Shown here: piece by piece, positions 33,682-36,070 of the stretch | How positions within the stretch are numbered: the first letter of the stretch is position 1 | Layout: the number at the start of each line of letters is the position of its first letter | Assembly (NCBI GenBank): GCA_944392465.1 | Contig: CALXWR010000010.1 | Location: forward strand, 1 to 36,070 | Origin: an uncultured Clostridia bacterium | Lineage (GTDB): Bacteria; Bacillota; Clostridia; TANB77; CAG-508 | Reading direction: 5' to 3' | DNA: 36,070 nt | Translations under genes and position numbers: made by a program | Notes under the pieces: generated by a model | Seen by the model: only the letters and a program-made list of their open reading frames with translations | Databases searched by the model: none | Told to the model about the DNA's origin: nothing

Positions 33682-34359
33682 ATGGGAATTTTTGATAAAT
33701 TAAGAAAAAAAAATAATCAACCAACATCGCGCTCTGTTACTCCAAATCCAACTACTAAACCACCTTTTAATCTAATCATATCAGCAACAAAAGATGGTAG
33801 ATGTCAAATAGAATTTGAAGATCACAAAGCAAATGATTTAAAACAATTTTATGATACGACAAGATTAATAATCAATGGAAAACCAATCATAATAAAAGGA
33901 CACACACTATACGATTGTGATATATCTTGGTATGGCTCAACTGACGCAATATTATTAGGTCCTGAGGGAGAAAAATATGGACGTAGAAATCAATATGAAA
34001 ACATATTAGCAGAAATAGATATAAATCAAATACAAATAGATGGAAGATATTGTCAGTTTGTTATGAGGCAATTATTAAATAGAAAACGTGTTCTAAGATA
34101 TTTGGAAAAAGGTCTAAGAGAATCTCCAGATACTCCTTGTGGAAAATACATTGGTGGAGTTAGATACTTAGAAGAAGCAAAGCTAGACAAATTCTTTTCA
34201 TGTGATGTCGGATTAGCAGCACATTCTTTGCCAGAAATGGTAGCAAGAAGAGAAAAACATAAACAAGAACTAGAATCCCAAAAAGCAAGGCAAATTGCTG
34301 AAAATAGAGCAAAAATACAAGAATTACAAAACAAAATAAAAAATTTGTCTGAAAGATAA
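33682..34359 (+). CDS. Protein of unknown function, only plus-strand gene
   Basis: This roughly 225-residue protein I do not recognise. It starts MGIFDKLRKKNNQ, has a Pro/Thr/Ser-rich stretch (about residues 13-30), a middle mixed domain with repeated charged strands (ISATKDGRCQIEFED, IIIKGHTLYDCDISWYG, GPEGEKYGRRNQYENILAEID) and a C-terminal coiled-coil-like helix from about 190 (REKHKQELESQKARQIAENRAKIQELQNKIK, cited by position). There is no signal peptide or membrane segment, so it is cytoplasmic. ATG at 33682 follows TTAGGAGATG; an ATG at 33646 lies within the promoter. It stops six bases before the first DnaA box of the adjacent cluster, so a role connected with that locus is possible but unproved. 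Confidence 0.75.
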   Translation: MGIFDKLRKKNNQPTSRSVTPNPTTKPPFNLIISATKDGRCQIEFEDHKANDLKQFYDTTRLIINGKPIIIKGHTLYDCDISWYGSTDAILLGPEGEKYGRRNQYENILAEIDINQIQIDGRYCQFVMRQLLNRKRVLRYLEKGLRESPDTPCGKYIGGVRYLEEAKLDKFFSCDVGLAAHSLPEMVARREKHKQELESQKARQIAENRAKIQELQNKIKNLSER

Positions 34360-34364
34360 AACAG

Positions 34365-34544
34365 TTATCCACAGACAAATTTCTACCATTTTATAAATAT
34401 ATTTCCAATTTAAATTATATTATGACATTATGTTACATTATTATTGTTGTTGTTTAACAATCTATTATCCACATATGTGTGGATAATGTGGATAACTCTG
34501 TGAATAACTCAGAATAAAGGATTTCATTTTTAGTATTTTCCACA
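34365..34544. other. DnaA-box cluster: candidate origin of replication or DnaA-binding locus
   Basis: Five perfect DnaA boxes (TTATNCACA) lie in 143 bp: 34365-34373 (+), 34465-34473 (+), 34478-34486 (-), 34487-34495 (-) and 34499-34507 (-, TTATTCACA). A one-mismatch box TTTTCCACA lies at 34536-34544 (+). Four of them fall within 43 bp. Very AT-rich DNA separates box 1 from the rest (34375-34440), and a run of TTA/TTG trinucleotides (about 34438-34455) stands just before box 2, where a DnaA-trio-like unwinding element would be expected, though the match is only partial. This accounts for the left part of the non-coding gap 34360-34923. No dnaA or dnaN is in the window. Confidence 0.65.
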
Positions 34545-34616
34545 TTAATATTTGCAATTATTTATGGAAACTTATTTTTTGATTTATTTTGCAAACAATA
34601 AAGGTATTATGTCACT

Positions 34617-34660
34617 TTTGGGGACAGGCTCTTTTCTGCCAACTTTGTCATAAAAAGGGA
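34617..34660. repeat. REP-like unit, left arm
   Basis: TTTGGGGACAGGC, then TCTTTTCTGCCAACTTTGTCA and a second shortened core AAGGGACAG. It matches the 28.6-kb units closely and is the inverted partner of 34868-34923. Confidence 0.8.
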
Positions 34661-34686
34661 CAGACTATTATAGTCTGTCTCTTTTT
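34652..34686. terminator. Strong bidirectional terminator hairpin
   Basis: A 16-bp stem (34652-34667 with 34671-34686) with a single G-U wobble, a three-base loop, and A-run and T-run at its ends fits termination in both directions. It separates the plus-strand gene from the convergent polC. The left arm includes a shortened REP-like core. Confidence 0.8.
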
Positions 34687-34867
34687 ACTACATATAATAT
34701 TAAAATCATAAAAACATTCGGAAAATCTATATAAATAATCTAAAACGTAGCAAAATATTTTTTAAATATGGCAATAAGTCATTAGTTAATAATATATTTA
34801 CAAAATATAGTTAAGATATACCTAAATCATGTTCAATCATGTTCGAAACATAGTGAGAATAATAGAG

Positions 34868-34923
34868 ACCTGTCCCTATAGATGACAAAGTTGGCAGTAA
34901 AGAGCCTGTCCCCAAAGATGACA
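34868..34923. repeat. REP-like units, right arm, abutting the polC stop codon
   Basis: Cores CCTGTCCCTA (34869) and GCCTGTCCCC (34904) are 35 bp apart and read as the reverse complement of the arm at 34617-34660. The block ends TGACA at 34923, immediately before the polC stop codon (34924-34926), the same junction as at 28982/28983. The 180 bases between this and the terminator are AT-rich with nothing else I can identify. Confidence 0.82.
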
Positions 34924-36070
34924 TTAGCCAAATAAGCTTATTTGGTTGCTTTGGCTCATTCCTTTTAAACAACCCACTCTGTCTAAAAGTTCTATAACCG
35001 ACTTGCCTATTTTTGAACGTATTTTCATGTCATCTATTGACATGAATTTTCCGTCTTTTTTTGCTTCATCTATTCCTTCTGCTGCTACTGTTCCTAATCC
35101 TGGTATGCTGTTAAGTGGTGGTCGTATTCCCTCTTCCTCCACTATGAATTTTGTTGCGTGTGATTTATATAAGTCTATTGGTAAGAATTTTATTCCTCTT
35201 TCATACATTTCTAAAACCAATTCTAGTATTGCGTACATGTTTTTATCTTTTGTAGTTGCACTATTCCCTGCTAAATCTATTTCTTTCATTTTGTTTAATA
35301 CTTTTTCTTTTCCGTAGCACATTATGTCGCTATCAAATTCGTCGGCTCTTATTGTATAGTATGCCGCATAATACGCTTTTGGTTCGTGTACTTTATACCA
35401 TGCTATTCTGAATGCATTTGTTACATATGCTGCTGCGTGTGCTTTTGGGAACATGTATTTTATTTTTTCACATGATTTTATATACCATTCTGGTACATCA
35501 TGTTCTCTCATTAGTGCTACGAATTCAGCCCATTTTTCTGGATCTTTTAATGCCTTTCCCTTACGTACTGTTTCCATTATTTTAAATGCTTTGTTTGGTG
35601 GAAGTCCTTTTTTTATTAAATATATCATTATATCGTCACGACAACATATTGCCTCATTTAAGGTTACTGTCCCTTCATCTATTAATGCTTGTGCATTTCC
35701 AAGCCATACATCTGTACCATGTGATAATCCAGATATACGAATTAATTCATCAAATGTTGTAGGTTTAGTGTCAACAAGCATTCCTCTAACAAATTTTGTT
35801 CCAAATTCAGGTATTCCGGTAGCTTCCTACTTTACTTTTTATTTGTTCGGGTGTTACACCTAGGGCATCTGTTGAACTAAATATTGACATTGTTTCTTTA
35901 TCATCTAATGGCACTTTAGTTGGGTCTTTTCCTGTTATATCAAATAGCATTCTTATCATTGTTGGGTCATCATGTCCTAGAATATCTAACTTAAGTAGGT
36001 TTTGGTCAATTGAGTGATAGTCAAAATGTGTTGTAATTATATCTGAATTAGGATCATCTGCTGGATGTTG
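34924..36070 (-). CDS. polC: DNA polymerase III alpha subunit PolC, C-terminal part, frameshifted
   Basis: The frame from the right edge encodes [20 protein letters not shown] through [13 protein letters not shown], typical of the PolC palm/fingers region, then hits a TGA at 35807-35809. Removing one base near 35821 joins it smoothly to the downstream frame ([22 protein letters not shown]), which runs on through [33 protein letters not shown] and [11 protein letters not shown] to the end. The C-terminus has QISLF, the beta-clamp-binding motif of PolC. PolC is the replicative polymerase of low-GC Gram-positives and is essential there, so the break is more likely a sequencing or assembly error than a real lesion. 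Its 5' part lies outside the window. It points toward the DnaA-box cluster. Confidence 0.88.

Follow-up and report, generated by a model that had tools for sequence, protein, structure and literature searches.

The DnaA-box array beside polC

The stretch of DNA analysed (the window, 36,070 nucleotides) is the entire contig C10 of the draft genome of an uncultured Clostridia bacterium, which comprises 1.34 Mb in 63 contigs and is 96% complete. Near the right end of the window, a cluster of DnaA boxes lies between polC, which is directed toward it and whose 3′ end adjoins it, and an accessory gene that separates it from glyS. An exact search for TTATNCACA recovered five boxes, at 34365 (+), 34465 (+), 34478 (−), 34487 (−) and 34499 (−), with a total span of 143 bp (34365–34507); four of them fell within 43 bp, two abutted and one inverted pair was separated by a 4-bp gap. 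In these respects, as well as in the direction of polC and the lack of dnaA in the window, an earlier sequence-only reading of this DNA proved accurate. In 300 dinucleotide-preserving shuffles, never more than two such boxes fell within 143 bp, against the five seen; the total count in the whole window was ordinary (6 boxes for 3.3 expected, with 10 of 100 shuffles reaching 6). A sixth member of the conserved array, the near-match TTTTCCACA at 34536 (+), was absent from the list of that reading. The trinucleotide run that it had pointed out, ATTATTATTGTTGTTG, is present in the window, but conservation is limited to its ATTATTATT part. The spacer between boxes A and B measures 91 bp and is 82% AT. 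The features of the locus are as follows.

33682–34359, plus strand: accessory gene P0001, between glyS and the element and outside the element
34365–34612, no strand: the entire conserved non-coding element, about 248 bp long with 78% AT, bounded by the polC 3′ end and by glyS or an accessory gene; in the alignment of 27 congeners, conservation sets in at 34365 and drops beyond 34612
34365–34373, plus strand: DnaA box A, TTATCCACA; 100 bp to box B in 20 of 27 congeners and 110 bp in two more (G011, G013)
34427–34433, plus strand: left ATTATGT motif, part of CGACATTATGTTACATTATTATT; 24 of 27 congeners have it at −51 from the core, two others at −52 and −54
34465–34473, plus strand: DnaA box B, TTATCCACA, opposed to boxes C, D and E, with a 4-bp gap to C; 24 of 27 congeners have it with at most one mismatch
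34478–34507, minus strand: 30-bp core (C-D-E), the portion kept beyond the genus; mean column conservation 0.989 in 27 congeners
34478–34486, minus strand: DnaA box C, TTATCCACA, first of the core triple; at most one mismatch in 27 of 27 congeners, exact in 26
34487–34495, minus strand: DnaA box D, TTATCCACA, directly adjoining C at 9-bp spacing; no more than one mismatch in 27 of 27 congeners, exact in 26
34499–34507, minus strand: DnaA box E, TTATTCACA, 12 bp from D; in 27 of 27 congeners, always with one mismatch to TTATCCACA
34536–34544, plus strand: DnaA box F, spaced 37 bp from E, TTTTCCACA here and TTATCCACA in 16 congeners; no more than one mismatch in 26 of 27 congeners
34606–34612, plus strand: right ATTATGT motif; relative to the core, at +127 to +129 in 21 congeners, at +138 or +139 in five and at +115 in one
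34924–36070, minus strand: 3′ part of polC, the most consistent neighbour of the element; 97–92% protein identity to congener polC

The left ATTATGT motif is possibly a binding site of a second protein. P0001 was ruled out as a partner of the cluster, since most relatives lack it: it occurs in only 4 of 56 relatives, and at other loci in two of those four. Its product, whose C terminus is predicted to be helical, matched no Pfam family above the family cut-off. A 316-bp element (34609–34924) with 55-bp inverted ends (89% complementary) sits between the array and the stop codon of polC; it looks like a small inserted element because its sequence is not conserved among congeners. The polC reading frame is broken at about 35781–35863 (near 35.8 kb) in this assembly, and in most congeners polC is one open frame of about 1470 codons; the break is either an assembly error or a real frameshift.

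Conservation and distribution of the element

The polC gene was located in 28 of the 30 genomes of the genus, the window's genome included, and 27 genomes were assessed for the array, with G028, whose contig ends just past polC, left out. The array was present in all 27 of these congeners, between polC and, where readable, glyS, with the boxes at offsets of 0, 100, 113, 122, 134 and 171. Within the core, 25 of the 30 columns were invariant and mean column conservation reached about 99%; at four-fold degenerate sites of polC, pairwise identity was 64%, column conservation 0.77 and the share of invariant sites 4%. Judged from these alignments, the element is under strong purifying selection and its box geometry is fixed across the genus. 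The gaps from the element to polC and to the next gene are variable (about 0.2–1.1 kb), so that it is the element itself that is conserved and not its spacing to a gene. In some congeners, the spacing of box A (from 100 to 110) and the offset of the right motif (from 128 to 138–139) are shifted by 10–11 bp, about one helical turn, which suggests phasing, although merely two or three insertion events may lie behind these shifts. It should be noted that a mobile-element origin of the array was ruled out by its genus-wide conserved position.

A reading of the element as a structured non-coding RNA, with the box-like sequences incidental, could appeal to hairpin pairing between the inverted boxes; no pair with a compensatory change was found, however, the covariation term was positive, Rfam gave no match and conservation was centred on the exact DnaA boxes. 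This reading, which we regard as extremely improbable, was ruled out on account of the missing compensatory pairs and Rfam match.

The core pattern was also searched for, with two mismatches allowed, in 385 genomes of the order, the reversed pattern serving as a control. It was found in 237 of them, nearly all belonging to the window's own family and usually carrying it once per genome, and the reversed pattern had no match in the 385 genomes. The named relatives bearing the core are uncultured Clostridia, including Candidatus Merdicola. Among 30 sampled loci of the order, polC lay within 1.5 kb of the core at 15, and neither dnaA, dnaN, recF nor rnpA stood beside it at any; a few order-wide matches are oriC triples, as in G060 and G032, where they lie just beyond dnaA on the dnaA contig. 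Many family members keep the spacing of box F at 37–39 bp, most have TTATGT-like copies left of the core, and box B is shifted or lost in several genomes outside the genus. Class-wide, a core match was present in 80 of 391 genomes. None of 30 class-wide matching loci adjoined dnaA; most lay beside the gene of a hibernation-promoting factor (with pcrA), or between the genes of a solute-binding protein and a zinc-ribbon protein, and a further box was often found 30–31 bp away.

These neighbourhoods bear on the possibility that the element is a promoter region through which DnaA turns the gene on its left (glyS, lepA or another) down or up. In favour of it, DnaA is a known transcription factor, and the leftward direction of most flanking genes places the element upstream of a gene; a similar triple in other Clostridia also stands upstream of the ribosome-hibernation-factor gene or of an ABC binding protein. 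However, the neighbour opposite polC changes (glyS, a rhodanese-domain gene followed by lepA, and others) at a distance of 75–982 bp, which leaves no fixed position relative to a target start; in this window, an oppositely oriented gene stands between the element and glyS, and promoter-like matches (13) were not above those in shuffles (10.6 ± 3.7). Control of transcription at the element is therefore considered quite unlikely.

Position relative to the replication origin

In Bacillota, oriC usually lies beside dnaA and dnaN. In the window's genome, dnaA was found on another contig, C14, in a locus of classical order, parB/parA-rsmG-mnmG-mnmE-jag-yidC-rnpA / dnaA-dnaN-recF-gyrB (names read from ORFs), which has two or more box clusters of its own, and the GC skew rises from −0.26 to +0.22 across dnaA. 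The dnaA–dnaN gap contains GTTTCCACA-12-TTATCCACA-9-CTATCCACA, followed by TGACC and TAATACTACTACTACTAAA, and the same layout occurs in most congeners; in the oriC triple of the genus, same-strand boxes are spaced 12 and 9, with CTACTACTACTACTAAA trios within about 5 bp, after a short GC patch. The sequence TAATACTACTACTACTAAA resembles CACCTACTACTATTACTACTATGA, the DnaA-trio of Clostridioides difficile oriC2 (PMC7561715). In the dnaN–recF gap of C14 (L003, 12565–12687), a further group on the origin side consists of a palindrome, TTATCCACA-N4-TGTGGATAA, and a third box at a distance of 101 bp; it is reminiscent of the B–C pair of the polC array.

The main idea of the sequence-only reading was that the array is itself a replication origin, primary or secondary, and the 12/9 spacing of its triple, which is that of oriC, the AT-rich surroundings and the AT-rich trinucleotide stretch agree with it. 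Against it stands the dnaA locus, with rnpA, dnaN, recF, gyrB, its own box clusters, DnaA-trios and the skew switch. The polC element has polC and glyS as neighbours and no dnaA/dnaN neighbourhood; no GC-rich patch with DnaA-trios follows its triple, an opposed box and AT-rich DNA being found there, and an opposing box stands between the triple and the ATTATTATT part. The GC-skew profile, which that reading had named as a check, is negative throughout C10, with no sign change at the cluster. In the congener G018, the 124-kb contig that carries the array (C2) likewise has negative skew to the left and to the right of it, and the switch occurs at dnaA on a 249-kb contig (C1). The skew thus refutes the main-origin reading, and an origin of either kind at the array is highly improbable.

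The array and dnaA were on separate contigs in every genome compared. From the contig ends and the skew polarity, we infer that the array of G018 is at least about 129 kb from oriC, or at least about 267 kb if it is on the left arm; in an order-level relative that is not among the core-bearing genomes (G053), polC and dnaA are about 170 kb apart on one contig. The site lies off the replication origin, is linked to polC and is normally single per genome. In draft genomes, densely clustered DnaA boxes thus need not mark an origin, a pitfall for origin-prediction tools.

In the window's own genome, contig C1 (L005–L007) was observed to carry 22 TTATNCACA boxes in 43 kb, at about 47–90 kb, mostly within genes. 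In G018, this contig corresponds to DNA immediately to the left of oriC, and the matching stretch there has far fewer boxes; the box-rich stretch is possibly a species-specific titration zone proximal to oriC.

Comparison with known DnaA-binding sites and the proposed role

In E. coli, DnaA is controlled through special chromosomal sites, datA and DARS. The layout of DARS1 was measured as box(+) 14 box(−) 12 box(−); the DARS2 core was not recovered in the E. coli mutH–ygdR stretch with 14/12 spacing under the TTATCCACA consensus, so that the measured DARS yardstick is DARS1 alone. The DARS core is described as three boxes, with box I opposed to boxes II and III, and the head-to-head contact of I and II is regarded as its hallmark (PMC5742627). 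Like DARS1 and DARS2, the polC element is an intergenic cluster away from oriC whose sequence, spacing and chromosomal position are conserved within a clade, and it likewise has a head-to-tail box pair 12 bp apart adjoining an opposed box. It differs in the extra abutting box C, the opposed box B lying 13 bp from C and 22 bp, instead of 14, from D; the three-box core spaced 14 and 12 is thus lacking and, with box C interposed between B and D, the polC element falls outside the strict geometry of a DARS core. It also has no IHF/Fis pair and stands in another gene neighbourhood. DARS2 tolerates displacement of its Fis sites by 10 bp better than by 5 bp (PMC4245941). Perhaps the polC element functions as a DARS does, despite its different geometry. 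With datA it shares a non-origin location, several strong boxes and conserved spacing; the measured datA layout, however, is +67+162+12−, and datA needs IHF; a search of the window's genome for the HU/IHF family found only one gene, of HU type.

Among Bacillota, the polC array resembles the DnaA-box clusters of B. subtilis in being a box cluster outside oriC in a chromosome of this phylum. It differs from them as one dominant polC-linked site with a rigid family-wide core, against six clusters, and polC is not among the strongest DnaA-bound regions of B. subtilis in PMC4447404. The oriC unwinding region of Clostridia, in the dnaA–dnaN intergenic region, has the same kind of same-strand triple spaced 12 and 9, but there the triple is followed by CTACTACTACTACTAAA trios and the unwinding region, whereas the polC element has an opposed box at this place, 4 bp from the triple.

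Of the two possibilities raised by the sequence-only reading, the datA- or DARS-like regulatory one fits best, given the purifying selection, the fixed box geometry in the genus and the presence of the core across the family. The explanation that we prefer, with moderate confidence, is a conserved non-origin DnaA control site that would act through a specific DnaA nucleoprotein complex, as DARS and datA do; the array probably tunes the timing of the start of replication and is no origin itself. DnaA binding, complex formation and an effect on initiation at the array are what we infer from the arrangement of the boxes. As at the oriC triple, DnaA would load head-to-tail along C-D-E; the opposing box B, assisted by boxes A, F and the two ATTATGT sites, would then fold the DnaA-bound triple into a closed complex, predicted to be non-unwinding because the GC patch and the DnaA-trios, which unwind DNA at oriC, are missing. 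The closed complex may change the nucleotide state or the availability of DnaA, in the manner of DARS or datA, and may thereby set initiation timing; the copy number of the site would double as the fork passes through polC. Between an activating and an inactivating action, the presence of an opposed box next to a head-to-tail pair tips the balance slightly toward reactivation, as in DARS.

The second-ranked explanation, ahead of transcription control, is a simple titration site whose boxes only soak up free DnaA, as the clusters outside oriC do in B. subtilis. It agrees with the six strong-match boxes in 180 bp, with the finding that joint deletion of the six B. subtilis clusters leads to early initiation (PMC5295017), and with the array being the only dense TTATCCACA group outside the oriC bin in 344 kb of G018. 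However, titration has no need for a 30-bp core at 99% conservation or for fixed offsets, and genome G000 has many other boxes near oriC, so that six more would add little capacity. We regard pure titration as possible but doubtful; a specific complex is favoured over it because titration needs no fixed spacing. The control-site explanation is further consistent with the 12/9 spacing, identical to the spacing of the oriC triple of this genome and its genus, and with the spacing shifts of about one helical turn. Against this explanation count the single HU-type gene, as datA and DARS2 of E. coli need IHF and HU is no substitute (PMC5742627), the shift or loss of box B outside the genus, and the fact that conserved spacing could also serve cooperative titration. 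On the supporting side, YabA, the main negative DnaA regulator in B. subtilis, was not found in the window's genome, at the completeness given above.

According to reviews, no nucleotide-switch site is known in B. subtilis and its box clusters have modest effects only (PMC5295017, PMC13220808). As a rigid, single-copy module that is linked to polC and kept across a family of Clostridia, the array is a concrete candidate for a site of this type in Bacillota; the conservation of its spacing offers a direct handle for separating titration from DnaA remodelling. The kind of site is already known; no description of a polC-linked DnaA-box site of fixed geometry in Clostridia was found in the searchable literature.

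The 9/12 triple, accompanied by a further box at a distance of about 30 or 37 bp, is found again in other families, at fixed neighbourhoods different from this one, and on this ground a class-wide system of non-origin DnaA remodelling sites may be envisaged in Clostridia, as a Gram-positive counterpart of DARS and datA controlling the nucleotide state of DnaA. Such a system seems unlikely; if real, it would control this state in bacteria where no such regulator is known. In other Clostridia (loci L126–L132 and L138–L142), the box triple upstream of the hibernation factor gene mostly adjoins a palindrome like ACAAAACANNTGTTTTGTG.
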